A DNA stretch of 64,000 nt, from contig NZ_JANHAW010000003.1 of assembly GCF_024464595.1 (NCBI RefSeq), positions 434,001 through 498,000 of the forward strand, written 5' to 3'. A model generated the notes under the pieces. The model was not told the origin of the DNA, searched no databases, and saw only the letters and a list, made by a program, of their open reading frames with translations. Shown in pieces: positions 2,258-20,934 of the stretch (position 1 is its first letter; every line of letters begins with the position of its first letter). The translations under genes and the position numbers were made by a program. The stretch comes from Halobellus litoreus. GTDB taxonomy: Archaea > Halobacteriota > Halobacteria > Halobacteriales > Haloferacaceae.

Positions 2258-3223
2258 TCAGTAGTCCGCGACGCGCTCGATCGCTTCGGCGATGCGCGGG
2301 GGATGCGGGATGTAGTAGTCCTCCATCGACAGCAGCGGGACGGGGATGTCGAATCCGGTCACGCGCTCGATGGGCGCTTCGAGGTACATCAACACCTCGT
2401 CGTTGATCGTGGCGATGATCTCGCTGGCCCAGCCGCCCGACTTCGGCGCCTCGTGGACGACCACGCAGCGACCGGTCTTCTCGACCGAGTCGACGACCGT
2501 CGCTCGGTCCATCGGTGAGATCGTTCTGAGATCGATCACCTCCGCGTCGACGTCGATCTTCGAGACCGCTTCGAGCGTCTTGTGCATCATCGCGCCCCAC
2601 GAGATCACCGTCACGTCCTCGCCTGCGCGACGAACGGCGGCCTCCCCGATCGGAACCTCGTAGTCGTCGTCGGGCACGTCCTCGCGGATCGACCGATAGA
2701 CGTGCTTCGGCTCCATAAACAACACCGGGTCCGGGTCCCGAATCGAGGCCTTGAGCAGGCCCTTCGTGTCGTACGGCGTGCTCGGAATGACCACCTTCAG
2801 TCCCGGAATGTGCGCGTATGCGCCTTCGAGGCTCTCGGAGTGGTGCTCCAGCGCGCGGATCCCCGCCCCGTACGGCGTTCGGACGACCAGCGGCGCGCTC
2901 CACTCGCCGCGGGTGCGCCACCGCATCCGACTCGCGTGGGTGACGAGTTGGTCGAACGCCGGCGGGAGGAACCCCGAGAACTGGATCTCCGCGACCGGGC
3001 GCAGCCCGAAGACCGCCAGTCCGACCGCGCCGCCGGCGATGGCGATCTCCGAGAGCGGCGTGTCCACCACGCGTGTCCCGCCGAACCGGTCTTTCAGCCC
3101 CTCCGTCGCCCTGAACACGCCGCCGGTCTCGGCGACGTCCTCGCCGAAGACGACGACGCTGTCGTCGCGTTCCATCTCCTCGGTCAGCGCCATATTGATC
3201 GCGTTGATGATAGTTTCAGGCAT
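2258..3223 (-). CDS. 2-oxoacid dehydrogenase E1 component, beta subunit
   Basis: A 321-residue transketolase-like protein, the usual length for E1 beta of pyruvate or branched-chain 2-oxoacid dehydrogenase. Typical family stretches are VVVFGEDVAETGGVF near the N terminus (the glutamate contacts the thiamine diphosphate aminopyrimidine ring), DTPLSEIAIAGGAVGLA, and HEAPKSGGWASEI in the C-terminal transketolase domain. It pairs with the E1 alpha gene just upstream, six bases away, so the two are almost certainly one transcript. The complex would oxidatively decarboxylate a 2-oxoacid to an acyl-CoA. No E2 gene is next to it, so the lipoyl partner must be elsewhere. The substrate is not resolvable from sequence. 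The neighbouring aldolase suggests pyruvate or a related 2-oxoacid. Confidence 0.93.
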   Translation of the reverse strand: MPETIINAINMALTEEMERDDSVVVFGEDVAETGGVFRATEGLKDRFGGTRVVDTPLSEIAIAGGAVGLAVFGLRPVAEIQFSGFLPPAFDQLVTHASRMRWRTRGEWSAPLVVRTPYGAGIRALEHHSESLEGAYAHIPGLKVVIPSTPYDTKGLLKASIRDPDPVLFMEPKHVYRSIREDVPDDDYEVPIGEAAVRRAGEDVTVISWGAMMHKTLEAVSKIDVDAEVIDLRTISPMDRATVVDSVEKTGRCVVVHEAPKSGGWASEIIATINDEVLMYLEAPIERVTGFDIPVPLLSMEDYYIPHPPRIAEAIERVADY

Positions 3224-3229
3224 AGATGC

Positions 3230-4378
3230 TCACCCCTTGGGTCGCCGCACGATGTGCTCGTCTAAGTCGTCCAGTTCGCTCAGGCTGCGTTCGAGCTCTC
3301 GCAGTTGCGCTTCGAGCTCGGGCGGCATCTCCTCGTAGAGGTGGACGAACAGCTCCTCGACCTCGCGGGGGCCGTACGCGTCGGCGGCTTCGATCGCCGC
3401 ATCGAACTCCTCGTCCACCTCGGCGACCATCGCCTCCCTGTCGACGTGGTCCCACAGTCCTTCCGACTTGAGGAAGGACTCGTAACGCTCGATCGGGTCG
3501 CGGTCGAGCCACGGTTTCACCTCGTCTCGATCGCGGTACTTCGTGGGGTCGTCGCTCGTGGAGTGACCCTCGCGGCGATAGGTGAGTCCCTCGAAGAGGA
3601 CGGGATTGCCCTGCAGCGCGAGCTCTCGGGCCTCGCTCATCGCGTGATACGTCGCGAGAACGTCGTTGCCGTCCACGCGGATCCCGTGAACGCCGTATCC
3701 GACCGCGCGCTGGGCGATCGAGTTGGCGTTCGTCTGCTTCTCGAACGGCGTCGAGATGGCCCACTGGTTGTTCTGACAGTAGAAGATCGTCGGGGCGTCG
3801 AGTACCCCCGCGAAGTTGACCGCCTCGTGGAACGCGCCGGTACTCGTCGCGCCGTCGCCGAAGTGCGCCGTGACGACCGAGTCGGTGTCGGTGATGTTCA
3901 TTCCCCACCCGATGCCGGTGACCACGGGAAGGTAGCCGCCGACGGAGATACCGATCATACAGTTCTGTTCGGCCAGGTACTTCTGCGCGTCCTCGATGCC
4001 GCGCCAGAAGAGCAGAATGTCCCGCAGTGAGACCCCCTTCATTAGCATCGCGCTGGTTTCGCGTCCCATCGCCAGCAGGTAGTCGTCCTCGGCGAGGGCG
4101 TAGCCGCTCCCGACGATACTCGCCTCGTGGCCGCGGCTCGACCCGACGGTCCCCATCTCGCCGCGTCGCTGGAGGTTGATCATCCGCTCGGCGTACCGCT
4201 TCTCGACGAGCATCCAGCGATACAGATCGATGAACTCCTCGGTGTCGAGGTCCGGCACGTCCGCGGGGTCGTACTCGCCGTTTTCATCTATTATTTGATA
4301 TTTAGTGACGGGGAGGTCGTCCTGCGTGATCCACGGGGCTTCCAGTTCAGTGGCCCCCTGTGAGGTGTTTTCGGTCAT
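3230..4378 (-). CDS. 2-oxoacid dehydrogenase E1 component, alpha subunit
   Basis: A 382-residue thiamine diphosphate-dependent E1 alpha. The ThDP/Mg motif starts at HFGDGATSTGAFHEAVNF (about residue 172) and closes at CQNNQWAIS, the expected G-D-G-x(~27)-N-N spacing. The phosphorylation-loop-like part reads YRREGHSTSDDPTKYR, typical of the family. It is the first gene of a two-gene unit with the beta subunit. Upstream sequence has an AT-rich TATA-like box. The gene is divergent from an amidohydrolase, and the whole unit sits at the edge of the aromatic catabolic region, where it could take 2-oxoacids made by aldol cleavage. A second E1 alpha of a different, acetoin-like type starts at 63554. 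Confidence 0.93.
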   Translation of the reverse strand: MTENTSQGATELEAPWITQDDLPVTKYQIIDENGEYDPADVPDLDTEEFIDLYRWMLVEKRYAERMINLQRRGEMGTVGSSRGHEASIVGSGYALAEDDYLLAMGRETSAMLMKGVSLRDILLFWRGIEDAQKYLAEQNCMIGISVGGYLPVVTGIGWGMNITDTDSVVTAHFGDGATSTGAFHEAVNFAGVLDAPTIFYCQNNQWAISTPFEKQTNANSIAQRAVGYGVHGIRVDGNDVLATYHAMSEARELALQGNPVLFEGLTYRREGHSTSDDPTKYRDRDEVKPWLDRDPIERYESFLKSEGLWDHVDREAMVAEVDEEFDAAIEAADAYGPREVEELFVHLYEEMPPELEAQLRELERSLSELDDLDEHIVRRPKG

Positions 4379-4664: not shown

Positions 4665-5753
4665 ATGATCGACGCGGCCGAGGAGCGGGTCGTCGACTGC
4701 GACTGGCACTACCAGGACTCGTTCACAGAAGTCGCGAAGTATATGCCCGAGCCCTGGCGCACGAAGTACAAGAACAGCAATTGGGAGGACGCCGGCGTCA
4801 CGCAGGCGCTCAGTTCGTTCTTCCCGACGTCGACGGGCGACAGACAGAATTACGGCAAGGTGCTGCGGGAGCACTCGAACTACCCCGACGAACCCGAAGA
4901 GCCCGAACGCGTCCGCGAGGGAATGGACTTCCTCGACGTCGACGTCTCCCTGCAGATCTCGCATCTCATCCTCGCTACAGGCGGAATCAACGCCGACGAC
5001 GAACGCATTCAGGCGTTTACGAGGGGATATATCGAGTATATGTTGGCGGAGGTGCTGGACCCCGACGACGGCGTCTACGGCCTCGCGCCGGTCCCGTACG
5101 GCGACATCGACGCCTCACTTCGGATCCTCGATCGCGTCGAGGACGAGGAGGCGTTCGTGGGAGCGTGCTTCGTCACGGCGGGGGCGAGCCCGCCGCTCGG
5201 CAATCGGAAGTACGATCCGATCTACGAGCGCTGCGAAGATATGGACCTCCCGGTGGTCTATCACACGGGCGGGTCGGGACTCGACGAGTACGTCCGTGCG
5301 GGCTATCAGGAGATGATCGAGACCCACACGCTCGGGTTCCTCGAGTCGAATATGTCGCAAATCGTCAGCGTCGCCTGCCAGGGCGTCCCCGAGAAGTACC
5401 CCGACCTCGACATCGTCTTTATGGAATCGGGCGTCACCTACATACCCGGCTTGGTGAGTCGTCTCGACGAGGAGTACCTCAAGCGCCCCGAAGAAACGCC
5501 GCTACTGGATACGCGACCCAGCGAGTACATCACGGACTTCTACTTCGGGACCCAACCGCTGGAGATCTCCGCCCGCAACGATCTGCTCGAACTCTGCTTC
5601 GATATGATCGGCACGGACCAACTGCTCTATGCTTCGGACTATCCACACTGGGACTTCGACAGTCCCTCGGTCATCAACGACCTGCCGATGCTCGACGACG
5701 ACGACCGCCGCGCGATTCTCGCCGGCAACGCGATGGAGGTGTTCGGGGTATAG
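4665..5753 (+). CDS. Amidohydrolase 2 family metal-dependent hydrolase/decarboxylase
   Basis: A TIM-barrel amidohydrolase of the ACMSD/LigW-like family (362 residues from this start). It has the N-terminal DCDWHYQD motif, YHTGGSGL, FMESGVTYIPGLVSRLDEEY (typical of this family) and the C-terminal YASDYPHWDFDSP with its metal-site Asp. The N-terminal motif reads D-W-H rather than H-x-H, a variant also common in this family. Members act on aromatic or ring-cleavage intermediates as hydrolases, hydratases or decarboxylases. The frame is open to a GTG at 4563, but those 34 extra residues are basic and unlike a halophilic protein. A Shine-Dalgarno-like GGGTGA precedes the ATG chosen. It is divergent from E1 alpha and convergent with the binding-protein gene. 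The exact reaction is unknown. Confidence 0.82.
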   Translation: MIDAAEERVVDCDWHYQDSFTEVAKYMPEPWRTKYKNSNWEDAGVTQALSSFFPTSTGDRQNYGKVLREHSNYPDEPEEPERVREGMDFLDVDVSLQISHLILATGGINADDERIQAFTRGYIEYMLAEVLDPDDGVYGLAPVPYGDIDASLRILDRVEDEEAFVGACFVTAGASPPLGNRKYDPIYERCEDMDLPVVYHTGGSGLDEYVRAGYQEMIETHTLGFLESNMSQIVSVACQGVPEKYPDLDIVFMESGVTYIPGLVSRLDEEYLKRPEETPLLDTRPSEYITDFYFGTQPLEISARNDLLELCFDMIGTDQLLYASDYPHWDFDSPSVINDLPMLDDDDRRAILAGNAMEVFGV

Positions 5754-5847: not shown

Positions 5848-6873
5848 TCAGTTCGAGGGGATGTAGTCGTTGGTCGCGTACTCCGTGACGTCGAAGCTCT
5901 CCTCGACGAACCCGAGGTTGACCATCTCGTCCATCGTGAACTGCAGGCGGTCCATATCGATCGTGAGGTCCTGCCGGTAGTAGTCGTTGTTCGTGAGGAA
6001 GAAGCCGTCGACGAGCGGCTCGGGAAGCTCGAAGTACTCCGCGGCGAGCGAGACGACCTCGCTGCGGTTCTCGTAGGCGTAATTGACCATCTCGCGGAAG
6101 TCCTCACCCCACGCCGCGATGGCGTCGCCCTTCTCGTCGATGGAACTGTTCGCGGCGACGGTGTAGGCGAACGGGTACGCCTGGTCCCACGTCTCCTGTG
6201 AGGTGTACACTTCGGTGAATCCCTCGCCGCGAGCGGAGACGGCGAAGATCGCCGGGAAGACGCCGGCGTCGATACGACCGTCGTTGATCGCGGAGACGAA
6301 CGTCGGGAACGGCAGTTCGACGATCTCAGCGTCGTTCTCGGGGTCGAGGCCGACCTGCTGGAACTTCTTGACGATCATCGCGTGGACGCCGGTCCCCTGT
6401 GCGTTGACGCCAATGGTCGCTCCTTCGAGGTCTTCGGGTTCGGTGATGTCCGAGTCCGCGCCCGAGAAGATGGTGATGCCGTACCAGTCGGGGTGAGCGT
6501 CCCAGAAGTCCGTCGCGATCATCGAGATGTTCCCCGGGACCGCCTCCTGACGGACGGCGGACGCGTAACTCACCGTCGAGAGCAGCGCCATATCGGCGTT
6601 GCCCGCCGCCATCTTGTTCAGCGAGTCCGGCGTGCTCTGGTCACGAGTGACGTTGAGTTCGTACTCCGAGCCGAGGTTCGTGAGTTGTTCTTGGATGTCT
6701 TCGATCGCGAACAGCGAGGCGATGTTCTCGACGGGTACGGTAAACGCCAGCCCGAGTTCCGGCGTCCCGCCACCGGTGATGCTCGAACACCCGGCGAGGC
6801 CGGTGAGTCCGACGGTCCCGACCGCGGCGCTGTGTTTCAGAAACGATCGGCGACCCGAGTTTTTGAGTGGCAT
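5848..6873 (-). CDS. NMT1/SsuA-like substrate-binding lipoprotein
   Basis: A 341-residue exported binding protein. The N terminus has a Tat motif (RRSFLKHSAA) and a lipobox ending TGLAGC, so it should be anchored outside the membrane by a lipidated cysteine. The mature part resembles periplasmic binding protein-like II domains of the NMT1/THI5, SsuA/TauA and TAXI groups: an N-terminal lobe with AAGNADMALLSTVSYASAV and a middle segment EGATIGVNAQGTGVHAMIVK. These bind sulfonates, pyrimidine precursors, or aromatic and organic acids. No permease or ATPase gene is adjacent, so the transporter partners lie elsewhere or are supplied by another system. It is last in a minus-strand series with the ring-cleavage genes, suggesting an aromatic or related substrate. 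It has its own promoter-like box. Confidence 0.85.
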   Translation of the reverse strand: MPLKNSGRRSFLKHSAAVGTVGLTGLAGCSSITGGGTPELGLAFTVPVENIASLFAIEDIQEQLTNLGSEYELNVTRDQSTPDSLNKMAAGNADMALLSTVSYASAVRQEAVPGNISMIATDFWDAHPDWYGITIFSGADSDITEPEDLEGATIGVNAQGTGVHAMIVKKFQQVGLDPENDAEIVELPFPTFVSAINDGRIDAGVFPAIFAVSARGEGFTEVYTSQETWDQAYPFAYTVAANSSIDEKGDAIAAWGEDFREMVNYAYENRSEVVSLAAEYFELPEPLVDGFFLTNNDYYRQDLTIDMDRLQFTMDEMVNLGFVEESFDVTEYATNDYIPSN

Positions 6874-7147: not shown

Positions 7148-8080
7148 TCAGTAGTTGACGCGGGCCTTCGACTCGATTTGCCCGATCCACTGCCGGTCTT
7201 CGAGATCGCCCTCCTGCCACTCGATGGTCTCCCACTCCGGATCGAAGACGAGGTAGCCGCCGGCGTTGAACTCGATGCGGTGGCCGCTGACGGGGTCGCG
7301 CACGTAGAGGAACTTCCCGCGGGAGATGGAGTGCTGTCCGATCCCGTCGGTCGGGATGCCGTGCTCGTTCATCGCGTCGTGCGCGTCGAAGAGGTCGTCC
7401 GCCGTGTCCACTTTGTACGCGATGTGGTGCAGCGCGGGGTCGTTCGCCGGGTCCTCGTCTTCGATCACCGCGGCCTCGATCTTGTTGCCGTTGGCGCTGA
7501 GGAAAGTCCCCCATCGCGAGCCGTCCTTGCGGTCGTACCGCTCCTGCACGCGGAAGTTGAGCGCCTCCTGGAGCCACTCCCGGAAGTCGTTGGCCGCGGG
7601 GTCCCACAGCTGGACGTGATCGATTCGCTTGGGCGCGATCGGATTCGTCGTCGTCCGGGAGTACGTCTTGTTCTTGAGCTTCGAGCGACGCTCCGCCGGC
7701 GGGTCGGGTTTCTCCATTTCGTAGTAGAACTCGAACTCGTGTCCCGTGGGCGTCGTGAAGCGATAGGCCTCGCCCTGGCCGAGTTCTTCGCCGTCGTCGA
7801 TCCACGTCACGTCGATGTCCCGCTCCTCGAGGGCTTCCTCGAAGGCTCCGAGATACTCGGGCTTACGCGTCTGCCAGCCGACGTGGTCGACCCCGGCCTC
7901 GTCAGCCTCCGAGAGGACGATCGAGTGGTGGTCGAACTCGTCGACGGCGCGGAGGTACGACGTGTCGCCGTCGCGTTCGACCTCTTCGAAGCCGACGGCG
8001 TCCCTGAAGAACTCCAGCGAGCCGTCGAGGTCGGGCGTTTCGAGCGCTACGTGACCGAGGCGAGCGAGTTCTGGATTCAT
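7148..8080 (-). CDS. Extradiol-type ring-cleavage dioxygenase (VOC superfamily, catechol 2,3-dioxygenase-like)
   Basis: A 310-residue two-module vicinal oxygen chelate protein, the length of type I extradiol dioxygenases. The C-terminal catalytic module keeps the iron-binding triad positions: His155 in RIDHVQLWD, His218/219 in PALHHIAYKV and Glu270 in GHRIEFNAGGY. The preceding GQHSISRGKFLYVRDP matches the active-site loop of the XylE/BphC class. The N-terminal module (residues 1-125) is the degenerate structural repeat. Such enzymes open a catechol ring next to the diol using Fe(II) and O2. It sits 87 bp after an HpcH/HpaI aldolase in the same direction, the classic meta-cleavage pairing. 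The ATG is preceded directly by an in-frame GTG. A non-aromatic VOC dioxygenase remains possible. Confidence 0.85.
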   Translation of the reverse strand: MNPELARLGHVALETPDLDGSLEFFRDAVGFEEVERDGDTSYLRAVDEFDHHSIVLSEADEAGVDHVGWQTRKPEYLGAFEEALEERDIDVTWIDDGEELGQGEAYRFTTPTGHEFEFYYEMEKPDPPAERRSKLKNKTYSRTTTNPIAPKRIDHVQLWDPAANDFREWLQEALNFRVQERYDRKDGSRWGTFLSANGNKIEAAVIEDEDPANDPALHHIAYKVDTADDLFDAHDAMNEHGIPTDGIGQHSISRGKFLYVRDPVSGHRIEFNAGGYLVFDPEWETIEWQEGDLEDRQWIGQIESKARVNY

Positions 8081-8167
8081 CACAACTCAGTGCACGTCGG
8101 TCTCCGATAATAACCTATCCTTCCGAACGGACGTTCGCCGGAACCGAAGGAGTCGAGCGTCCGGACG

Positions 8168-8953
8168 TTACCGCAGCGAGTCGACCGAATCCAGCCGTTC
8201 CGAGAGCGTCGACTTGATCGACGCGAGGTCGCCCCCGATTCGGATGATCTGGTGGCCGTCGTCGACGGCCGATTCGATGGCCTCGGGCTCGGTCTCGATG
8301 ACGCCCGTCGGAACGTCCGCCTCGTGACACGCCTCGGTGATCTGCTCGATCGTCTCGACCACTTCGGGATGCGTCTTCTCGCCGGGGTGACCCATCTGTA
8401 CCGAGAGGTCGGAGGGACCGATGAACACGAAGCCGAGTTCCGGAACCGAGAGGATGTCGTCGAGCTCGTCGACCGCGGTCGTCTTCTCGATCATCACGCC
8501 GAGGCACACCTCCCGGTCTTCGGTCTCGATGTAGTCACCGCCGGACAGCCCCCACGTCCGGGAACGACCGCTCGCCATACCCCGTTCGCCGGGTTCCCCG
8601 TCGTAGACGAACCGAGCGGCTTTCGCGGCCTCGCGGACCTCCTCGGCGGTGTCGACGCGCGGGATGAAGACGTTTCTGACGCCCGCGTCCAGCACCTTGC
8701 GGATCAGAGAGGGGTCGCCGCTCGGGAGCCGGACGAACAGTTCCGTCCCGCCGATTTCGGCCGCCCGTGTCAGTTCCTCGAAGACGGTGCTGTCCCACGG
8801 GCTGGGACCCATGTGTTCGAAGTCCAGCCAGACGAAGTCGATCCCGAGTTCGCCGTAGATCTCGATCACTGTGGGGGAGAAGGTCGACGACCGGGCACCG
8901 AAGACGACGTCACCGTTCTCGATGGCGTGCCGGAAGGCGTTTCGTTGCTCCAT
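8168..8953 (-). CDS. HpcH/HpaI family class II aldolase
   Basis: A 261-residue pyruvate-type class II aldolase. Motifs include DFVWLDFEHMGPSPWDS, IPRVDTAEEVREAAKAARF, GERGMASGRSRTWG, and the divalent metal ligands in LGVMIEKTTAVDELDDIL (Glu) and FIGPSDLSVQMGHPG (Asp). Family members cleave 4-hydroxy-2-oxo acids to pyruvate plus an aldehyde or to oxaloacetate-type products, the last step of meta-cleavage routes. The start was set at the ATG before EQRNAF; the longer open frame adds 36 basic residues that do not fit. It follows a VOC gene and precedes the extradiol dioxygenase, consistent with the lower pathway of ring cleavage. The actual hydroxy-oxo acid is not determined. Confidence 0.9.
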   Translation of the reverse strand: MEQRNAFRHAIENGDVVFGARSSTFSPTVIEIYGELGIDFVWLDFEHMGPSPWDSTVFEELTRAAEIGGTELFVRLPSGDPSLIRKVLDAGVRNVFIPRVDTAEEVREAAKAARFVYDGEPGERGMASGRSRTWGLSGGDYIETEDREVCLGVMIEKTTAVDELDDILSVPELGFVFIGPSDLSVQMGHPGEKTHPEVVETIEQITEACHEADVPTGVIETEPEAIESAVDDGHQIIRIGGDLASIKSTLSERLDSVDSLR

Positions 8954-9183
8954 TGTGGGAGCGACTGCGGGAGCGAGTGTGTTATACGTTCCGATCGAAT
9001 CACTCGACGGGCCTCGCGGGCGACGCGGTCGGCGGAAAGAGACACCGAATCGGGGGGGCATCGGACGAATCTCCGGCGACGGCTGTATCGGCGGAGTACA
9101 CCCGGGGATTCTCGACGGCAGTCCCGGAGCGGCGGCTCCGGGGTAGAACCGAAAGAAGAGGGACGGACGCGGCGTCGGCCGCG

Positions 9184-9549
9184 CTATTCGTCGTCTTGAA
9201 CGATCTGGAAGCGGCGGCCGTCGGGGTCGCGGAAGTTGGTGATCGTGCGGCCGGTCTTCTCGACGTGGTAGGGACCGACGATGGAGTCGACCTCTTTCTC
9301 TTCGAGGTCCGCAGTGATCTCTTCGATGTTGTCGACGCCGAACGCGATGTGGTTGATACCGGGGACTTCCTCGCCCTCGACGGTGTGAATCTCGAAGAGC
9401 GGGCCGTCGCCGTCACCGGGGACGAGTTCGAACGACTGGCCGTGGTGTTCGGTCTCGCGGTGCTCCTCGTAGCCGAGTTTCTTCAGGAAATCGGCCATCT
9501 CGCTCGCGTCGCTGGCTTCGATCTCGATGTGGTCGATCTCGCCGATCAT
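9184..9549 (-). CDS. Small VOC/glyoxalase-fold protein
   Basis: A 121-residue single-module VOC protein starting at the ATG before IGEIDHIEIEA. The metal-site positions His in IDHIEIEA, His in GINHIAFGVDN and Glu or Gln near the ends (RRFQIVQD) place it with lactoylglutathione lyase-like or methylmalonyl-CoA epimerase-like enzymes, but it is too generic to name. A TATA-like block (about 9571-9580) lies 22-31 bp upstream. The gene stands between the CoA ligase and the aldolase, so it may be an isomerase, epimerase or small dioxygenase in the same route. Confidence 0.78.
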   Translation of the reverse strand: MIGEIDHIEIEASDASEMADFLKKLGYEEHRETEHHGQSFELVPGDGDGPLFEIHTVEGEEVPGINHIAFGVDNIEEITADLEEKEVDSIVGPYHVEKTGRTITNFRDPDGRRFQIVQDDE

Positions 9550-9657
9550 ACTCCGAAAGTGCCGTGCAACGGTAGTAAGTATTCCGATATTGGTACCCAA
9601 AGTGAGGGACGCGACGCCGGCCTCCCGAGCGGCGGCAGTCCTGCCGGGCTGTTCGCG

Positions 9658-11229
9658 CTACTCTCGGTCGGGAACCAGTCGCGACCGGAGTTCGGCGCGG
9701 TCGAGTTTCTCCGTCGCGGTCCGGGGGAACGACTCGTCGACGAAGTGATACTCGCGCGGCCGCTCGAAGCGGGCGACTTCGTCGCTCTCGAGACACCACG
9801 CCTCGAGCTCGTCGGGGCCGACGTCGGCGTCGGTCCGGCGAACCACCGCGACGACCTTCTCGCCGTACTCGTCGTCCGGCACGCCCACCACCGCCGCCTG
9901 CTCGACTGCCGGGTGTTCGAGCAGGCGCTCCTCGATCGGCGTCGGGAAGACCTTGATTCCCTTCGATTTGATCATGAAGTCGGTCCGACCCTCGACGTAC
10001 AGGTAGCCGTCTTCGTCCTTGTATCCGAGGTCGCCGGAGTACCACCACCCGTCCTCGAACACCTCCTCTGTCTTTTCCGTGTCGTTCCAGGCCCACGCCG
10101 CGCAGTCCGGACCCTTGATGATGATCTCGCCGGTCTCCCCCGCGGGTCTGACCGCGTCAGGTCGGCCGCCTGGTTCGACGACTCGGACCCGGGTTCCGGA
10201 GATCGGCTTGCCGACGCTCCCCGTCCGATCTTCGGTCAGTTCCGCCGCGCTGATTTCGGTGCCCAGGACCTCGGTTGCCGCGTAGCTGTTGAACACGTCC
10301 TCGCAGATCTCCTCGCGGATGGAGGCGAGCGTGCGCTCGTCGAGGTACTCGCCGCTTGTCACCACCCGGTCAAGCGAGCCGAGATCGTACTCCGAGAGCG
10401 AGTCCAGCCGGAGCACCTCCTGCCACATCGTGGGAATCAGATCCGCGGTCGTCAGGTTCTGTTCGTCGATCAGACGGACGTACGCCTCGGGATCCCACTC
10501 CGAGAGGAAGTACGTCGTCGCGTTCGACGACAGGGCGGGGAGGAACAGCGCGTACCACGCGGCGAAGGAGGGGGTGAACACGTGCGCCTGGGCCGCAGTG
10601 CGGTCGAGTGCGAGGAGCTTTTCGAGGTGGAGCGCCTTGTGACAGAGCGCACGGTGGGTGTGACACCAGCCCTTCGGTCGCCCGGTCGTGCCGGAGGTCC
10701 ACTGGATGGACGCGACGTCGTCCTCCCGGACGCGGATGTCGGGGGCGACTGCCTCGTGCGATTCGATCAGCGGTTCGTGCGACTGCTCGTAGTCAGTCCG
10801 CTCGGTGCCGGTCGTGATGACCGCGCTGAGGTCGGTCGTGATCTCGTCGTAGAGGTCCGATTCGACGAACGCGGAGAACTGCTCGTCGACGACGAGCACG
10901 CGGGGGCGGATCGAGTCGATACAGTACCGCAGCGTCTCCGCCGAAGCGCGCGTGTGAAGGTTGGAGACGATGCACCCCGCTTTCATCGCGCCGTTGAACA
11001 GGATGCTGTGCGCGATCGAGCAGTCGCAGAGGAACGCCACCCGGTCGCCCTGCGCGCAATGCTCGCTGAAGGCGTTCGCCGCACGGCGACTCCGCTCGTC
11101 GAACGTCGACCACGTCACCTCTCGCCCGGTGGTCGCCTCGCCGTACGCGATCCGATCGGGATTGTTGGTCGCGGCCATCTCCGAGAGTTCGTGTATCGGC
11201 GGCAGCCCGACGGTGGATGTCGTGTGCAT
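9658..11229 (-). CDS. AMP-forming acyl/aryl-CoA ligase (copy 1)
   Basis: A 523-residue class I adenylate-forming enzyme. It shows the P-loop-like motif QWTSGTTGRPKGWCHTH, the A5 region FNSYAATEVLG, the A7/A8 hinge YSGDLGYKDEDGYLYVEGR followed by DFMIKSKGIKVFP, and the C-terminal catalytic lysine in PRTATEKLDRAEL, where the glycine usually before the Lys is Glu. It activates a carboxylic acid to the acyl-AMP and then the CoA thioester. The amidohydrolase gene ends only 7 bases upstream, so the two are translated from one message. It is clearly paralogous to the ligase at 25269-26822; both begin M-H-x-T-S-T-V. Context suggests an aromatic or phenylpropanoid acid, but the substrate is not fixed by the motifs. 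Confidence 0.92.
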   Translation of the reverse strand: MHTTSTVGLPPIHELSEMAATNNPDRIAYGEATTGREVTWSTFDERSRRAANAFSEHCAQGDRVAFLCDCSIAHSILFNGAMKAGCIVSNLHTRASAETLRYCIDSIRPRVLVVDEQFSAFVESDLYDEITTDLSAVITTGTERTDYEQSHEPLIESHEAVAPDIRVREDDVASIQWTSGTTGRPKGWCHTHRALCHKALHLEKLLALDRTAAQAHVFTPSFAAWYALFLPALSSNATTYFLSEWDPEAYVRLIDEQNLTTADLIPTMWQEVLRLDSLSEYDLGSLDRVVTSGEYLDERTLASIREEICEDVFNSYAATEVLGTEISAAELTEDRTGSVGKPISGTRVRVVEPGGRPDAVRPAGETGEIIIKGPDCAAWAWNDTEKTEEVFEDGWWYSGDLGYKDEDGYLYVEGRTDFMIKSKGIKVFPTPIEERLLEHPAVEQAAVVGVPDDEYGEKVVAVVRRTDADVGPDELEAWCLESDEVARFERPREYHFVDESFPRTATEKLDRAELRSRLVPDRE

Positions 11230-11236
11230 CGTCCGT

Positions 11237-12319
11237 TCAGAGGTCGATGTAGTTGCGGAACATCCGGTTGTCCGGGACGTCGAGGTCGAACAGGCGAACC
11301 GCGTTGCCGCCGAGGATCAGGTTCAGATCCTCCTGCGGGAGGTCGCGGTCCATCGCGAACTTCTGGAGTTGGCGGAGGCTCGGCCCCCAGAAGTCGACCT
11401 GGTGCGCCGGGAGTCCGCGGTCTGCGACCTGGTCCCAGTAGTATGGCGGGTCCTCGTTCGGCTGGCTGATCTGCGGCATCGACGCGCCCCAGTCGGTCCC
11501 CCAGAGCAGCTGGTCGACGCCGATGTTGGGGTCGTTCAGCGGTTTCTTCAGCAGGTCGGCCCAGTAGAGGCCGATCTCGAGGTAGACGTCGTCGAAGGAC
11601 GCGGCGACCTGACAGCACTGGTCGACGTGGTGTTCGCGCCACGTGGCCTGCATCCCGCCGTGGTCGAAGATTATCGGGACGTCGGGATACTCGGCCTTCA
11701 TCTGACTGGCGAGCGTCGGGTCGCTCCAGTCCGGGAAGTGATCGAAGATCCCGAGCCCGGTGGCGTAGCCGGAGACGTAGCCGGTGTGCCAGCGGATCGG
11801 CACCTCGTGTTTGGCGGCGACGTCGAAGAACTCGCGGAGTTCGTCCTTTCGGTCGGCCCAGTCCATCGGCTCCTCGGTCGTCGGGTCGTACGGCATCCCC
11901 TCGCCGATCATCCGGAAGCCGTCCTCCTCGAGCCACTCGTCGACCTCCGCGGCAGCCTTCTCGGCGGTCCACTCCTCCTCGCCGCGCTGGGCCGCCTTCA
12001 TCGTCTGGACCGGGTAGGCGGCGGCGACGAACTTCTCGGGGTGTTCCTCCATCATCTCGGCGTGCATCTCGTTCGTGAACCCGAAGGTCCCCGGGAGGAG
12101 GACGCACATGTCGACGCCGTAGGTGTCCATATCCCGGAGGACGCGATCGGAGTTGTCGTAGACGATCACCTCGTCGTCCTCGGTGGCCTCGTCGCCCGGA
12201 ACCGCAGTCACCATTTTTTTCGCGAGTTCACCGTAATCGGCCTCGCCGTCGAGTTGGATCCGCGCGGCGTGGCGCTGCGCGTGGCAATGCGTCTCAACCA
12301 GGAATCGACCCAGCTTCAT
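11237..12319 (-). CDS. Amidohydrolase family protein
   Basis: A 360-residue metal-dependent TIM-barrel hydrolase. Metal-site motifs are ETHCHAQR (H-x-H), IRWHTGY, IIFDHGGMQATWREHH and LLWGTDWG with its Asp. It belongs to the amidohydrolase 2 group like the protein at 4665-5753 but is not a close copy. It is the first gene of a unit with the CoA ligase, from a strong promoter-like box. Possible roles are hydrolysis, hydration or decarboxylation of an aromatic acid or ring-cleavage product; LigW, LigJ and LigI of the bacterial lignin pathway belong to the same superfamily. The precise reaction cannot be read from the sequence. Confidence 0.85.
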   Translation of the reverse strand: MKLGRFLVETHCHAQRHAARIQLDGEADYGELAKKMVTAVPGDEATEDDEVIVYDNSDRVLRDMDTYGVDMCVLLPGTFGFTNEMHAEMMEEHPEKFVAAAYPVQTMKAAQRGEEEWTAEKAAAEVDEWLEEDGFRMIGEGMPYDPTTEEPMDWADRKDELREFFDVAAKHEVPIRWHTGYVSGYATGLGIFDHFPDWSDPTLASQMKAEYPDVPIIFDHGGMQATWREHHVDQCCQVAASFDDVYLEIGLYWADLLKKPLNDPNIGVDQLLWGTDWGASMPQISQPNEDPPYYWDQVADRGLPAHQVDFWGPSLRQLQKFAMDRDLPQEDLNLILGGNAVRLFDLDVPDNRMFRNYIDL

Positions 12320-12694: not shown

Positions 12695-13924
12695 TTAGAG
12701 GCTGCAGCGGGCGTCCGGAATGACGTCGGGGTACTCTGCGAGGACTTCGACCTCCGTGGCGTCACCGGCCTCGACGCGTCGGCCGCCGAAGAAGTTGAGC
12801 GCTGCCTGGTGATCTTCCTCGCGGAACTGGATCGGACCGAAGACCGAATCCCACTCCAGCCCTTCGAGTTCGGTAATGATGTCGTCGGTGCCCGTGCCAC
12901 CGGCGGCCTCGATCGCCGTCGCGAGCGCACGCATAAGCTCGAAAGAGGCCCCGGCCGTCGAGTTCGGCAGCAGGTTGCTGTCGAGGTTGTTGTAGAGGCT
13001 CTTGAACTCGTTGTTGACCTCGGTATCGAGACTGGGGTTGTAGAAGTGCGTGCCGAACCAGCCGTCGACGGTGACTTCGTTGGCCATCGTCGAGGCGGCG
13101 AACTGGCCGATCGGCTTCCCTGAGTTGAACATCATCACCTTCTCCTCGGGGAGCCCGAACGAGTTGGCCTGCGGGATCAGCTGCGCGGCCGCACCCCAAG
13201 TGAGGACGCCGGTCACGACGTCGGCATCGCTGTTGGAGATCTCGGAGATGTACGTCGACCAGTCGGTTTCGCCGAGCGGGACCAGCGTGCTGCCGGCGAC
13301 TTCGCCGCCGACCTCGCTCATCGCCTCCTCGACCAGTTGGAGGCCGTTCTGGCCGAGCGCGTAGTCCTGCGACACGTAGTAGACGCTCGAGGGGTCGATG
13401 TCGCGGTCGATGTGGTTGGGGAGCTCCTGGATGAACTGCGTCCCCGTCGGCGCCAGGTGCCGGTTGCTGGGCCAGATGAAGAACGCGTACTCGTTACAGT
13501 TTTCAGGGTTCTCACGGGCCTCGACCGAGGAGGCCGTCGTCAGGAGGTGCGGCACCTGCCCGTCCTCTTTGATGTACTGCATCACGGCGATCGAGTTCCC
13601 ACTGCTCACCGGGCCGATGATGGCGTCGACGTCCTCGTCTTCGACGAGCGTTCGGGCCGCCTGAATCGACGCTTCCGGCGTGGACTCGCCGTCCTCGATG
13701 ATGAGTTCGAACTCCTCGTCGAGGATCGTGTTGTTGAGATACTCTTGAGCGACTTCGAGCCCGCGTCGGTTCTCTTCACCGGTCCGGGCGAACGGGCCAC
13801 TTAGGGCCATCACCGCACCGATCGTGACCGAGTCGGACCCGCCGCCACCCCCACCGAGGCAGCCGGCAGCCGACGTAATGCCCGCGACGCCCGCAGCTTT
13901 GAGGAACGATCTTCTCTGAAGCAT
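12695..13924 (-). CDS. LIV-type ABC transporter substrate-binding lipoprotein
   Basis: A 409-residue periplasmic binding protein-like I (Leu/Ile/Val-binding) protein. It has a Tat motif (RRSFLKAAG) and a lipobox with the cysteine in SAAGC, followed by a glycine linker. The mature domain starts VTIGAVMALSGPFARTG and carries INGPVSSGNS-like ligand-loop sequence (IIGPVSSGNSIAVMQ). It is the binding component for the permeases and ATPases at 14068-17650. Related bacterial proteins in aromatic-degradation loci bind benzoates, coumarates and similar acids as well as amino acids, and the surroundings here favour an aromatic acid. The upstream in-frame ATG at 13957 is not used in this model because it would bury the Tat signal. 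Confidence 0.92.
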   Translation of the reverse strand: MLQRRSFLKAAGVAGITSAAGCLGGGGGGSDSVTIGAVMALSGPFARTGEENRRGLEVAQEYLNNTILDEEFELIIEDGESTPEASIQAARTLVEDEDVDAIIGPVSSGNSIAVMQYIKEDGQVPHLLTTASSVEARENPENCNEYAFFIWPSNRHLAPTGTQFIQELPNHIDRDIDPSSVYYVSQDYALGQNGLQLVEEAMSEVGGEVAGSTLVPLGETDWSTYISEISNSDADVVTGVLTWGAAAQLIPQANSFGLPEEKVMMFNSGKPIGQFAASTMANEVTVDGWFGTHFYNPSLDTEVNNEFKSLYNNLDSNLLPNSTAGASFELMRALATAIEAAGGTGTDDIITELEGLEWDSVFGPIQFREEDHQAALNFFGGRRVEAGDATEVEVLAEYPDVIPDARCSL

Positions 13925-14067: not shown

Positions 14068-15030
14068 TTACTCCTTACCCCTGATGAACCCCATAATCCC
14101 GTCCGGGAGGGCGAAGACGAAAATCACGAAGAGGAGACCGAGAAGCAGCCGGTAGCCTTCGAGCCAGATGCTCTGGAGGACCTCTTGCATAAACACGAGG
14201 CCGATGGCCGCGGCGAACGGTCCGAGGAGCGTCCCCGTCCCGCCGACGATGATCCAGATGATCACGTCGCCGGTCAGCGCGAAGGAGATCAGCGACGGCG
14301 AGGCGATGCCGATGGAGCCGACGTACACTGCCCCAGCCAGGGCGGAGACCACGGCGGAGACGACCCACGCGATCATCAGCTCGCGGTTCGTGTCGTATCC
14401 GAGGTACCGCATCCGGAGTTCGTTCTGTCGCGTCGCCTGCAGAACGTCGCCGTAATCGCTCTTGATCAGCACGTACAGGCCGATCCCGAAGACGGCGACG
14501 ACGAGCAGCGTGAAGTAGTAGTAGGGCGTGCTGCCGCCGAGATCGAGGCCGAGGACCTCCGGCGGGCTGAAGAAGCCGAGACCGTCGGAGCCACCGGTCA
14601 CCGAAGTCGTGACGAACGTGAAGTCGTATGCGATCGCCCCGAAGGCGAGCGTGAACAGCACGAAGTAGACGTCACCGATCCGGCGTTTGATCGGGACGTA
14701 GCCGACGATGACCGCCATCACGATCGCGAGGACGACGGCGACAGGGAACCCGAGCCAGAACGACTGTCCGTAGTCGACGACCACCTTGGCGACGGAGTAG
14801 GCACCGAGTCCGAAGAACGCCGCCGGGGCGAGCGTGAGCAGTCCGGCGTAACCGAGGACGACGTCGACCGAGATGGCGAACAGCCCGAAGATGAGCGCCT
14901 CGGTGGCGAGGCTGGACTGACTGGGGGCGAGGATCGGAACCGAGAGCAGCAGCAACGCGCCGAAGACGAACAGGGGACGCCGAGCTCGCCCGCGAACGAA
15001 CTCGCGGGCCTCGGTCAGCGTGTCGCTCAT
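14068..15030 (-). CDS. livM: LIV-type ABC transporter permease (LivM family)
   Basis: A 320-residue integral membrane protein with about nine hydrophobic segments and an extra N-terminal part compared with its partner, as in LivM. The conserved AAFFGLGAYSVAKV stretch and the GGTGTLLGPFAAAIG stretch near the C terminus are the family hallmark and its ATPase-contact region. Its start overlaps the stop of the LivH gene by 4 bases, so the two are translationally coupled. It forms the inner-membrane channel with LivH. Confidence 0.92.
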   Translation of the reverse strand: MSDTLTEAREFVRGRARRPLFVFGALLLLSVPILAPSQSSLATEALIFGLFAISVDVVLGYAGLLTLAPAAFFGLGAYSVAKVVVDYGQSFWLGFPVAVVLAIVMAVIVGYVPIKRRIGDVYFVLFTLAFGAIAYDFTFVTTSVTGGSDGLGFFSPPEVLGLDLGGSTPYYYFTLLVVAVFGIGLYVLIKSDYGDVLQATRQNELRMRYLGYDTNRELMIAWVVSAVVSALAGAVYVGSIGIASPSLISFALTGDVIIWIIVGGTGTLLGPFAAAIGLVFMQEVLQSIWLEGYRLLLGLLFVIFVFALPDGIMGFIRGKE

Positions 15031-15914
15031 TCGTGCACCTCCGGCTTACCGAAGAAGCCGCGCGGTTTGTACAGGATGAACACCATCGCCGCCGCGAAGA
15101 TGAGAATCCGGACGTACGTGGGAGCGAGAAGCAACCACCCGAAGGCGATGACCTGCCCGACGATCATACTCACGACGAACGAGCCTTTGAAACTCCCCAT
15201 CCCGCCGACGATGATGACGAGAAACGCCATCGTGATGTAGTCGAGCCCGATCGTGGGATACATCGACGTGATCGGGGCGGTGAGCGCCCCGGCGAGCGCC
15301 GCCAGCGCGGTGCCGAGGACGAACGTGACGGTATAGACCTTAGACGTGTCGACGCCGAGGATCTCGGCAGTCGGCTGCATATTCGCAGTGGCGTGGATCT
15401 CCAGTCCCAGTCGTGTTCTGGTCAGTAGCAAGCCGATAGCGAGCGCGACGGCCGCGCCGACGGCGATGACGAAGATCCGATACGAGGGGTAGCTCACGCC
15501 GAACAACTGAATCGACTCCGGAAGCGGCGACTGAACCGTGTACGATCGGCTCCCGAAGTAGACGGCGAGGGCCTCCTCGATGACCAACCCGATGCCGAAC
15601 GTCGAGAGGAACCCGAGCAGCGGTTCGTCGTAGATCCAGTACAGGACCTTCCGTTCCAGTGCGAGCCCCAAGAGCGTCACCAGCACGACCGAAATCACGA
15701 GGCCGAGCCAGAAGTTCCCCGTCACCTGAAGCACGACGTAGGTCCCGTAGCCCCCCAGGGCCAACATCGCGCCGTGCGCGAAGTTGATGAGACCGATCAG
15801 CCCGAAGATGAGCGAGAGCCCGCTCGCCACCAGAAAGATGATCATCCCACGACTGAGGCCGTTCAGTACGTATGTGATGAAGTTGTCAGCGGTGATAAGT
15901 GGGAGTTCGTACAT
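15027..15914 (-). CDS. livH: LIV-type ABC transporter permease (LivH family)
   Basis: A 295-residue membrane protein with eight or so hydrophobic segments. It has the LivH signatures GLINFAHGAMLALGGY near residue 40 and IIVGGMGSFKGSFVVS near residue 230. It is the first gene of the livH-livM-binding protein unit. It lies about 310 bp downstream of the two ATPase genes, so this transporter is encoded in two adjacent transcription units reading the same way. Confidence 0.92.
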   Translation of the reverse strand: MYELPLITADNFITYVLNGLSRGMIIFLVASGLSLIFGLIGLINFAHGAMLALGGYGTYVVLQVTGNFWLGLVISVVLVTLLGLALERKVLYWIYDEPLLGFLSTFGIGLVIEEALAVYFGSRSYTVQSPLPESIQLFGVSYPSYRIFVIAVGAAVALAIGLLLTRTRLGLEIHATANMQPTAEILGVDTSKVYTVTFVLGTALAALAGALTAPITSMYPTIGLDYITMAFLVIIVGGMGSFKGSFVVSMIVGQVIAFGWLLLAPTYVRILIFAAAMVFILYKPRGFFGKPEVHE

Positions 15915-16224: not shown

Positions 16225-16935
16225 TCAGACAGTCAGATACTTGTCCTGAATTCCCTCGTCGCCGAGGAACTCCGAGTCGCCCTCTTCGACGATCTGACCG
16301 GTCTGGATCATATACCCGCGGTCGATGAGCGGCAGCATCCGATTGATGTTCTGCTCGGCGATCAGAACCGCGCGATCGCCCGTCACGAGCGATTCCAGTA
16401 TCTCGACGACGTCGTCGATGATCGTGGGCGCGAGCCCCTCAGTCGGCTCGTCGAGGAGGAGGAGGTCCGGGTCCGTGACCAGCGCACGTCCGATGGCGAG
16501 CATCTGTTGTTCGCCGCCGCTCAGCGTCCCGCCGCGCTGGTTCTGCCGTTCGCCGAGGCGTTCGAACTGCGTGAAGACGTTCTGGATCCGGTCTTCGCGG
16601 ACGTCGTCGCCGACGTCCGCCGACATCGCCAGATCGAGGTTCTCCCGGACCGAGAGCGCGGGATAGATTTCGCGCTCTTCAGGAACGTACGCGATGCCCT
16701 CTCGGATGATCTCGTGTGGCGACCACTGGGAGACGTCTTGCCCCCGGTAGGTGACGGTTCCCGTCTTTCGATCGATGCGGTTCACGAGGCTGTTCAGGAG
16801 GGTCGTCTTCCCCATCCCGTTCCGGCCGAACACGCCGACGACGTCGTTCGTGCCGAGGTTCATCGAGACGTCGAAGAGGACCTGACTATCGCCGTAAAAG
16901 GCGTTCAGGTCCTCGACGGAGAGGAGTTCACTCAC
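16225..16935 (-). CDS. livF: LIV-type ABC transporter ATPase (LivF family)
   Basis: A 236-residue ABC ATPase of LivF length. Walker A is GRNGMGKTTLL (residues about 37-47), the signature is GGTLSGGEQQMLAIGRAL and Walker B is LLLLDEPTEGLAP. It ends in the typical DRGYMIQTGQIVEEGD segment. Its start overlaps the LivG stop by 8 bases. It powers import by the LivHM channel. Confidence 0.94.
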   Translation of the reverse strand: MSELLSVEDLNAFYGDSQVLFDVSMNLGTNDVVGVFGRNGMGKTTLLNSLVNRIDRKTGTVTYRGQDVSQWSPHEIIREGIAYVPEEREIYPALSVRENLDLAMSADVGDDVREDRIQNVFTQFERLGERQNQRGGTLSGGEQQMLAIGRALVTDPDLLLLDEPTEGLAPTIIDDVVEILESLVTGDRAVLIAEQNINRMLPLIDRGYMIQTGQIVEEGDSEFLGDEGIQDKYLTV

Positions 16936-17650
16936 CGAGATACACCTCCTTGACCTGGGAGTTCTGAACGACGTTTTCCGGGGTGTCGGTCGTGAGCACT
17001 GACCCGTTGTGGAGAACCGTGATCCGGTCCGAAATCGCCCTGACCAGGTCGATGTCGTGTTCGACGATCAAGATCGCGTAGTCGCCGCGAAGCTCTTCGA
17101 GGATCTCCCTGACCTCGTTCGTCTCCGACTCGTTCAACCCGGCCGCGGGTTCGTCGAAGAGGATGACCTTCGAGTCCATCGCGAGCACCATCGCGATGTC
17201 GAGGAATCGTTTCTGCCCGTGAGGGAGGTTCCGCGCGACCGTGTCGAGTTGGTCTTCGAGGTGGGCCAGCTCGGCGACTCGCTGGATCTCCTCCGAGTAG
17301 TCGGCGTCGCGGTCGAGAACGCTACGGACGGTCCGCGTCGACTCGCGGACGGCGAGACGGAGGTGCTTTCTGACCGTCATCTCGGGAAAGTACTGGACGA
17401 CCTGGAACGACCGCCCGATCCCGCGGCGTGCGATCGTCGACGGGGAGAGGCCGACGAGGTCCTCGCCCTCGAATTGAATGGTGCCCCTCGTCGGAGTCAG
17501 CTCTCCGGTGATGAGGTTGACCGTCGTCGTCTTTCCGGCCCCGTTGGGACCGATGAGTCCGTGGATCTCGCCGGATCGGAGCTCCAGGTCGACGTCGTCG
17601 ACGGCGACGACAGAGTCGAACTTCTTCGTGAGTCCCTCGACCGAGAGCAT
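16928..17650 (-). CDS. livG: LIV-type ABC transporter ATPase (LivG family)
   Basis: An ABC ATPase with Walker [19 protein letters not shown], a LivG-specific middle segment GIGRSFQVVQYFPEMTV, a degenerate signature LPHGQKRFLDIAMVLA and Walker B KVILFDEPAAGLNESET. The start is set at the ATG before LSVEGLTKKF, the usual LivG N terminus. The frame stays open to a GTG at 17728, and a TATA-like box near 17766-17775 leaves that longer form possible. It is the first gene of the ATPase pair. Confidence 0.92.
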   Translation of the reverse strand: MLSVEGLTKKFDSVVAVDDVDLELRSGEIHGLIGPNGAGKTTTVNLITGELTPTRGTIQFEGEDLVGLSPSTIARRGIGRSFQVVQYFPEMTVRKHLRLAVRESTRTVRSVLDRDADYSEEIQRVAELAHLEDQLDTVARNLPHGQKRFLDIAMVLAMDSKVILFDEPAAGLNESETNEVREILEELRGDYAILIVEHDIDLVRAISDRITVLHNGSVLTTDTPENVVQNSQVKEVYLGE

Positions 17651-20538: not shown

Positions 20539-20934
20539 ATGTTCGAGTACGAATGGAAGTGCGCCTGGGGAGACGCCGATCCCCACGGTATCGCCTACTA
20601 TCCGAACCTCGTCGACGCGATGCACCGCGCCGGGGAGGAGTTTATGGACGACCGCGGAGTGGCTTACTGGGACATTCCGGAGGATTACGGCGTTCACCTG
20701 CCGATCGTTTCGATGGACACCGACTTCAACCGCCCCGTGACCGTCGGCGACGTGGTTCGGATCACGGTCGAACCCGACGTGGGATCGAAGAGCCTCGGGA
20801 TGGAGTTGACGGGGCGCGACGACGACGGAAACGCCCTTTTCACCGGAGACGAGCGCCACGTCTGCGTGTCGAAAGCCGACAACGAACCGCAGGAACTGCC
20901 GGAAGCGGTGAGAGACGCCATCGACGACGATTGA
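20539..20934 (+). CDS. Hotdog-fold acyl-CoA thioesterase (4-hydroxybenzoyl-CoA thioesterase family)
   Basis: A 131-residue single hotdog domain. The N-terminal WGDADPHGIAYYPNLVDAMH matches the active-site segment of 4-hydroxybenzoyl-CoA thioesterases (W/F-x-D-x-D-x-x-G-I-x-Y-Y-P-x), with the catalytic Asp in place. Such enzymes release a free acid from an aryl- or acyl-CoA. It is one of the few plus-strand genes in the cluster and is divergent from the LigM-like gene. With two CoA ligases nearby, it supports a route in which aromatic CoA thioesters are made and later hydrolysed, or it recycles trapped CoA. Confidence 0.88.
   Translation: MFEYEWKCAWGDADPHGIAYYPNLVDAMHRAGEEFMDDRGVAYWDIPEDYGVHLPIVSMDTDFNRPVTVGDVVRITVEPDVGSKSLGMELTGRDDDGNALFTGDERHVCVSKADNEPQELPEAVRDAIDDD

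Follow-up and report, generated by a model that had tools for sequence, protein, structure and literature searches.

The 64,000-nt stretch of Halobellus litoreus DNA analyzed here (the window) corresponds to positions 434001–498000 of contig NZ_JANHAW010000003.1, designated C3 among the contigs C1, C2 and C3 of this 3.86 Mb genome. Its minus strand carries a series of five genes which, in reading direction, encode AH1 (11237–12319), an Amidohydro_2 protein by Pfam with a fold like that of LigJ, LigY and ACMSD; CoAL1 (9658–11229), an AMP-forming acyl/aryl-CoA ligase matched by Pfam and NCBIfam; smVOC (9184–9549 (9600); 121 aa), a small single-module VOC protein recognized by Pfam; an HpcH/HpaI-type class II pyruvate aldolase (HpcH; 8168–8953 (9061); 261 aa), with Pfam, NCBIfam and PDB matches; and a VOC-type ring-cleavage dioxygenase (EDO; 7148–8080 (8083); 310 aa), assigned by two Pfam stretches, PDB alignments, a residue table and a tree. 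Both the presence and the order of these genes agree with the initial annotation of the locus, and the five open reading frames are not due to chance, since each has a Pfam match and orthologues in the same order in Halobellus. The series lies within a block at 2–27 kb which also holds two homologues of LigM/DesA-type O-demethylases, a MetF-like reductase, a LivKHMGF-type transporter, an IclR regulator, a thioesterase and a 2-oxoacid dehydrogenase E1. The O-demethylase homologues and the MetF-like gene, 10–17 kb from the five genes, had previously been overlooked.

With its two VOC modules and a 2-His-1-Glu metal site, EDO resembles the type I (VOC) extradiol dioxygenases such as catechol 2,3-dioxygenase and HPCD. 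The proposed metal triad is indeed kept, with His155, His219 and Glu270 aligning with His155, His214 and Glu267 of HPCD, while His218, given initially as an alternative to His219, aligns with HPCD His213. Equivalents of HPCD His248 and Tyr257 are also present. However, EDO differs from this class in the absence of the second-shell acid-base residue His200, at whose position it has Ile201, a substitution not remarked upon before; furthermore, within the LigM-linked clade of EDO, the position of HPCD Asn157 is occupied by Gln and that of Trp192 mostly by Phe. Of 44 aligned dioxygenases, 23 have His at position 200, 14 have Ile and 7 have Tyr. The Ile-type enzymes, all 14 of which belong to the LigM-linked group, make up a single clade (100/100) that is nested within haloarchaeal enzymes of the His200 type, and the metal triad and the His248 and Tyr257 equivalents are invariant in every one of them. 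The Tyr-type enzymes constitute a separate bacterial clade (99/99). Tyr is also found at position 200 of 9wgj, the PDB chain nearest to EDO, which bears the name ‘catechol 1,2-dioxygenase’. Scores of EDO with the NCBIfam equivalog models for catechol 2,3-dioxygenase (TIGR03211) and HpaD (TIGR02295) were below the respective cut-offs (254.2 vs. 320.2 bits and 208.6 vs. 321.4 bits).

The Glu and Asp metal ligands attributed to the aldolase were confirmed as well, as Glu156 and Asp182 are invariant in 15/15 orthologues together with Asp44-x-Glu46-His47 and Arg75; moreover, Glu156, Asp182, Arg75 and His47 align with YfaU, in line with a class II pyruvate aldolase of the HpcH/HpaI type. In smVOC, which accompanies EDO in 13/14 loci, His7, Glu53, His67 and Gln115 are invariant in 17/17 proteins. 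An open reading frame at L060:13302–13868 in genome G077, a relative of G093, starts like the G093 dioxygenase and matches a small VOC protein in its remainder; G077 is devoid of LigM, while pab-like genes, HpcH and an aldehyde dehydrogenase remain, and it seems from these sequences that the dioxygenase gene was deleted and its start joined to the small VOC gene.

AH1 is 87–95% identical to proteins of Halobellus rufus, H. rarus, H. captivus and H. clavatus. In a fold search, LigJ, LigY, ACMSD and benzoate decarboxylases tied at Z ~18–19, which fits the amidohydrolase superfamily, and 8sm6–8sm9, relatives of the second Amidohydro_2 protein AH2, were not among the 50 AH1 fold matches listed. 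By our own reading, made on AH1 rather than on an alignment to LigJ, the invariant Asp276 lies near the strand end where a Glu is expected (Glu284 in LigJ). It had been suggested that an amidohydrolase might carry out a missing step of the pathway, but AH1 lies outside the conserved core, with a relative in 3 of the 243 genomes of the order (E ≤ 1e-40). As a universal hydratase of the core, it was rejected, because it is rare and the EDO-LigM loci examined in other families do not include it. The AH1 gene is separated by 7 bp from the CoA ligase gene, an arrangement which recurs in H. clavatus locus L029, and AH1 may serve a side substrate. In that locus, which has no dioxygenase gene, three genes for AH1-like amidohydrolases and two for CoA ligases are found within ~7.5 kb (L029:5171–12661). 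AH2 itself (4665–5753, plus strand; Pfam), from the ACMSD/decarboxylase superfamily, is also encoded near other cluster genes in H. captivus (L027), H. clavatus (L028) and H. limi.

The two LigM/DesA-like putative aryl O-demethylases are encoded on the minus strand by LigM1 (19084–20430; identified by NF047633 and a PDB match) and LigM2 (23787–25109), the copy conserved across families. LigM is the best PDB match of LigM1 (E 1e-108, nearly full length), and the NCBIfam models with which LigM1 scores best are those for syringate and vanillate/3-O-methylgallate O-demethylases. As expected for LigM/DesA enzymes, LigM1 has a GCV_T fold, and the positions of LigM Tyr247, Glu215 and Trp256, to which we ascribe folate-side functional roles, are kept in 21/21 aligned proteins. 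RefSeq names these homologues ‘hypothetical’ or ‘aminomethyltransferase’. Together with the MetF-like methylene-tetrahydrofolate reductase (PF02219; 18017–18796, minus strand; Pfam and NCBIfam), these features make a predicted O-demethylation function of the cluster well supported. Tetrahydrofolate is described as the one-carbon carrier in haloarchaea (PMC8305020). The H. litoreus genome harbors seven LigM-like genes; LigM copies may be undercounted across genomes, as the search scored 6 candidates per genome. The seventh, at C1:602 kb, lies beside a second pair of HpcH and small VOC genes (L058:8142–10723), a stretch with no dioxygenase. Two further proteins (L024:11685–14234, 849 aa; L034:2447–3646) show weak (24–27%) similarity to LigM-like proteins, are encoded near a second MetF-like gene at C3:109 kb, and perhaps act on N-methyl or other one-carbon substrates.

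The remaining genes of the block frame those described above. Between AH1 and the MetF-like gene, and likewise on the minus strand, lie genes for a LivK-type substrate-binding protein (12695–13924), two LivM/LivH-type permeases (14068–15030 and 15027–15914) and two LivF/LivG-type ATPases (16225–16935 and 16928–17650), all assigned by synteny and the RefSeq annotation of the H. limi orthologues. A 4HBT-type acyl-CoA thioesterase (20539–20934, plus strand; Pfam and NCBIfam), an IclR-family regulator (21202–21963) and a D-2-hydroxyacid dehydrogenase (22714–23670) separate the two O-demethylase genes, the latter two being on the minus strand, as is the second AMP-forming CoA ligase gene, CoAL2 (25269–26711), which is conserved near LigM2. 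At the other end, an NMT1-type substrate-binding lipoprotein (5848–6873; Pfam and NCBIfam) and the alpha (3230–4378) and beta (2258–3223) subunits of the 2-oxoacid dehydrogenase E1 are encoded on the minus strand. An Rfam scan of positions 1–28000 gave no match.

H. rufus, H. rarus, H. captivus and H. clavatus share with H. litoreus a syntenic block consisting of IclR–thioesterase–LigM-like–MetF-like–Liv transporter–amidohydrolase–CoA ligase–small VOC–HpcH–dioxygenase–E1, in which the E1 and substrate-binding genes of H. clavatus are inverted or moved. The block is also present on a plasmid of H. limi, whose plasmid 2 carries the smallest set observed (small VOC–HpcH–dioxygenase–LigM-like–IclR). 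A core formed by the LigM-like, dioxygenase, HpcH aldolase and small VOC genes recurs in three other haloarchaeal families, where several loci adjoin genes for folate synthesis and one-carbon recycling. On plasmids of Halosolutus gelatinilyticus and Halostagnicola larsenii, the cluster comprises formyl-tetrahydrofolate deformylase, MTHFR, folP, pabB (annotated in Halostagnicola larsenii as anthranilate synthase component I family), pabA and folD, together with two small VOC genes, a dioxygenase, a LigM-like gene (‘hypothetical protein’), a CoA ligase, a thioesterase and HpcH; 2-oxoacid dehydrogenase genes are nearby in both, and an aldehyde dehydrogenase gene in Halostagnicola larsenii. Similarly, FolD, PurU, MptA and TrpG/PabA proteins above cut-offs are encoded within 20 kb in genome G129. 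Genes in the loci compared were called by codon usage, a procedure weak in low-GC stretches such as G117/L035; loci L054–L056 were covered in part.

Across the 243 genomes of the order, LigM-like genes (E ≤ 1e-60) were detected in 11, and close relatives of EDO (E ≤ 1e-90; 62–78% identity in other genomes) in 6, all of them among those 11 (hypergeometric probability 1.7e-9, ignoring relatedness). MetF-like genes were present in 63 genomes, including all 11 with LigM (1.8e-7); both values overstate independence, because the genomes are related. LigM2-like genes (E ≤ 1e-60) were restricted to 4 of 392 genomes of the phylum, all from the same order. Relatives of HpcH with at least 68% identity occurred in 7 genomes, 6 of which have LigM, while weaker relatives are common (114/243 at E ≤ 1e-50). 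At the level of individual loci, 13 of the 14 Ile-type dioxygenase genes have LigM-like, HpcH and smVOC genes within ~20 kb; the fourteenth, at C3:80 kb of H. litoreus itself, adjoins a gene for formate dehydrogenase alpha (above cut-off) and has a LigM-like gene ~32 kb away.

Replacement of His200 was also observed in bacteria. Tyr-type VOC dioxygenase genes were accompanied by CHA aldolase and oxalomesaconate tautomerase genes in 4 of the 6 plasmid loci seen. Among 13 plasmid loci annotated with His200-type enzymes, the number was 0, with 4 of the 13 viewed only within ±1.5 kb. The four Tyr-type loci (L075:1486–2448, L080:4480–5448, L081:4483–5457 and L083:4501–5463), whose dioxygenase is called ‘catechol 2,3-dioxygenase’, belong to alphaproteobacterial plasmids from Agrobacterium tumefaciens, A. 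vitis, Thioclava and Roseibium, and also encode a PIG-L deacetylase. In the Pantoea locus, none of these three genes was found within 4.5 kb, and the Roseomonas locus has a class III extradiol dioxygenase and an alpha/beta hydrolase in their place. The link between His200 loss and gallate-type neighbors is a correlation; the alphaproteobacterial Tyr-type enzymes are possibly an unrecognized VOC-type gallate-class dioxygenase. Like the haloarchaeal cluster, the gallate-type operons of Agrobacterium, Thioclava and Roseibium, as annotated in RefSeq/GenBank, combine a VOC dioxygenase devoid of His200 with an aldolase for the keto acid left by ring opening. They differ from it in having Tyr instead of Ile, in the separate clade of their dioxygenase and in encoding an oxalomesaconate tautomerase, a LigK aldolase and a protein of the PIG-L deacetylase type; the Halobellus genome has no members of the RraA-like and PrpF families. 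A Rhodococcus plasmid carries a LigM-like gene with MetF, PurU, FolD, PabB and folP as well as a LigAB-type dioxygenase, a PIG-L deacetylase and a CHA aldolase, and, as judged from its genes, couples the LigM-like gene to a putative 3-O-methylgallate/gallate-type route.

The five genes had initially been described as a complete-looking meta-cleavage lower pathway. What stands of this is that a haloarchaeal cluster for aromatic catabolism pairs a ring-cleavage dioxygenase of the VOC type with a class II pyruvate aldolase; the classical pathway is not supported, since no semialdehyde dehydrogenase, hydratase or decarboxylase is found beside the five genes. None of the five FAA-hydrolase (PF01557) genes of the genome falls in the window. 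The region at C2:347–358 kb encodes two dmpE/dmpH-like proteins (below cut-off), a 4-hydroxy-2-oxovalerate aldolase and an acylating acetaldehyde dehydrogenase that both exceed their cut-offs, two His200-type dioxygenases, an amidohydrolase and an aldehyde dehydrogenase. Genome G093, from another family, has a similar set. A classical lower pathway inside the window was thus rejected, given that its FAA-hydrolase, hydroxyoxovalerate aldolase and acylating acetaldehyde dehydrogenase genes sit on C2, and the existence of that catechol-type pathway implies that the window genes serve something else. Two aldehyde ferredoxin oxidoreductase-like genes (L013:11761–13431 and L057:14017–15693), 67% identical to each other, are located in the vicinity of the catechol-type meta cluster and of a paralogue of AH1.

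Gene identities, synteny, co-occurrence and residue patterns were computed here, and it is from these that we infer every reaction and substrate considered below. The cluster is probably a module for the breakdown of methoxylated aromatic acids, be it vanillate, syringate or related compounds of the lignin type, combining O-demethylation on tetrahydrofolate, ring opening by a His200-less enzyme and cleavage by HpcH. The acid would enter through the LivKHMGF-type transporter, and one or two LigM/DesA-like enzymes would transfer its O-methyl group(s) to tetrahydrofolate, whereupon methyl-tetrahydrofolate would be oxidized to methylene-tetrahydrofolate by the MetF-like enzyme, so that the one-carbon unit could be used or burnt and tetrahydrofolate recycled. 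The freed di- or trihydroxy acid would be opened by the VOC-fold dioxygenase, with its predicted Fe site and Ile in place of His200; smVOC and, in Halobellus, perhaps also an amidohydrolase would process the ring-opened acid, from which the aldolase would release pyruvate, a possible substrate of the 2-oxoacid dehydrogenase.

With regard to the ring opening itself, our leading guess, held at somewhat less than even chances, is a gallate-type reaction yielding an oxalomesaconate-like keto acid instead of a semialdehyde, because of the Rhodococcus analogy and because smVOC and HpcH are nearly always found with the dioxygenase and LigM. The CHA aldolase and oxalomesaconate tautomerase genes next to the Tyr-type, likewise His200-less VOC enzymes also speak for it. 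The known gallate/oxalomesaconate enzyme set was not encountered in the H. litoreus genome, in which Pfam gave no matches to PF02900 (LigB-type), PF03737 (RraA-like CHA aldolase) or PF04303 (PrpF-type tautomerase). The lack of a LigB-type dioxygenase was counted in favor of a gallate-type role for EDO, whereas the lack of the known tautomerase and aldolase families argues against it, since their functions would then fall to HpcH and smVOC or AH1. More tentatively still, the cluster might represent a haloarchaeal gallate/3-O-methylgallate-type route assembled from unrelated families, namely folate-dependent O-demethylases, a His200-less VOC dioxygenase, a small VOC tautomerase or hydratase and an HpcH aldolase yielding pyruvate and oxaloacetate, with folate supply alongside.

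Several other observations weigh against the proposed module. The dioxygenase, the aldolase and the LigM/DesA homologues all missed their NCBIfam equivalog cut-offs, LigM1 scoring 499.9 vs. 800 bits with NF047633 and 444.3 vs. 580 bits with NF047885. The position of LigM Arg122, which we take to be the carboxylate-binding residue, is replaced in all 18 haloarchaeal copies aligned, so that their substrates may differ. MetF-like genes also occur in 52 genomes devoid of LigM, the H. litoreus genome has only a partial 37% match to PurU and no clear PurU, and both CoA ligases and the thioesterase are left without a place in the route. There are no annotated oxalomesaconate genes beside the dioxygenases of the Ile clade, the predicted structure of EDO (pLDDT 37) was unusable, and the aldehyde dehydrogenases in related loci (L037, L051, L060, L064 and L069) fit a semialdehyde route.

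Such a route could resemble the homoprotocatechuate (HpaD-HpaI) pathway, with homovanillate-type acids being demethylated and cleaved to a semialdehyde which, upon oxidation by an aldehyde dehydrogenase, would be split by an HpaI-like HpcH, the missing steps being encoded elsewhere in the genome. The best-scoring model for HpcH is HpaI (131 bits), and HpaD ranks second for EDO (208 bits); aldehyde dehydrogenases encoded near related clusters have matches below cut-off to several models including HpaE, and HpaD loci of Deinococcus and Shinella carry HpaE, HpaH and HpaI. Nevertheless, we regard this explanation as unlikely: both equivalog cut-offs are missed, aligned HpaD-type enzymes keep the His200 that the EDO clade does not have, and no FAA-hydrolase of the HpaG/HpaH type is present in the window or in the annotation tables of four Ile200-type loci. 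A protocatechuate 2,3-type route, for which PraH is a precedent, would instead proceed from vanillate to protocatechuate, ring cleavage by EDO and decarboxylation by an ACMSD-like amidohydrolase into a catechol-type lower pathway. Although AH1 and AH2 belong to the ACMSD/decarboxylase/LigJ/LigY superfamily and such a lower pathway exists on C2, this appears improbable, as the EDO-LigM-HpcH-smVOC core exists without the rare AH1, the C2 pathway has its own His200-type dioxygenases and amidohydrolase, and HpcH would be left without a role.

It could further be argued that the ring-cleavage chemistry of the VOC protein has been lost or altered, the outcome being, for example, intradiol cleavage or no oxygenation at all, and that the cluster is not an extradiol one. 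In HPCD, His200 shuttles a proton during extradiol cleavage, the rate being near nothing without it (PMC10760822), and His200, Tyr257 and His248 were computed to decide between extradiol and intradiol outcomes (PMC6308299); EDO might therefore have lost ring cleavage, and the name and Tyr200 of 9wgj point in the same direction. However, the invariance of the metal triad and of the His248 and Tyr257 equivalents in the Ile clade argues for a working oxygenase, and a pyruvate aldolase is not obviously needed for intradiol products, for which reasons we give this alternative little credence.

Beyond the block, the GC content of the window drops at ~42.5 kb from ~0.70 to 0.52–0.58, and positions 42500–64000, which encode a Pyr_redox protein, an aldehyde dehydrogenase, an ALAD-family protein, transporter parts and a GlcD-like FAD/4Fe-4S protein, look like a separately acquired island. 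E1-like sequence comes after this low-GC part, in L020.

Folate-dependent O-demethylation, VOC dioxygenases and HpcH aldolases are all of known kinds. The LigM/DesA system of Sphingobium SYK-6, where metF is presumably a neighbor, resembles the cluster in its O-demethylases, whose folate-side residues the haloarchaeal homologues keep, and in the nearby MetF-like reductase. The haloarchaeal side is distinguished by its archaeal host, by seven divergent copies in one genome with the Arg122 position replaced, and by the pairing with a VOC-fold rather than a LigB-type dioxygenase and with HpcH rather than a LigK aldolase. In SYK-6, LigM and DesA catalyze the tetrahydrofolate-dependent O-demethylation of vanillate and syringate (PMC12314914). 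Archaea demethylating methoxylated aromatics are also represented by Methermicoccus and Archaeoglobus, whose MtoABCD-based methoxydotrophy is corrinoid-dependent and anaerobic, with the methyl group most likely passed to tetrahydromethanopterin (PMC8359953); Halobellus differs in the folate-dependent enzyme type and aerobic ring cleavage predicted from its genes. The haloarchaeal aromatic routes in the relevant part of a review are gentisate routes (PMC4005966), and no aromatic terms were found in the main text of PMC3102087. In the openly licensed literature, no description was recognized of the haloarchaeal union of O-demethylase, dioxygenase, HpcH and folate genes or of the Ile-for-His200 clade, which does not establish their absence from print.

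If the proposed module is correct, it would bring aerobic, folate-dependent use of methoxylated (lignin-type) aromatics to Archaea that inhabit salterns and saline soils, and would give names to genes left as ‘hypothetical protein’ or ‘aminomethyltransferase’ in RefSeq. Should the route be of the gallate type, His200 would have been lost because a tri-oxygenated substrate does not need it, and its loss would recur as a hallmark of this class of substrates, with Ile as the replacement in archaea and Tyr in bacteria. In the two studies cited above, the second-shell control of ring cleavage is treated by means of an HPCD mutant and calculations (PMC10760822, PMC6308299), and the His200-less clade, with His200-type paralogues in the same genome, offers a natural test of it.

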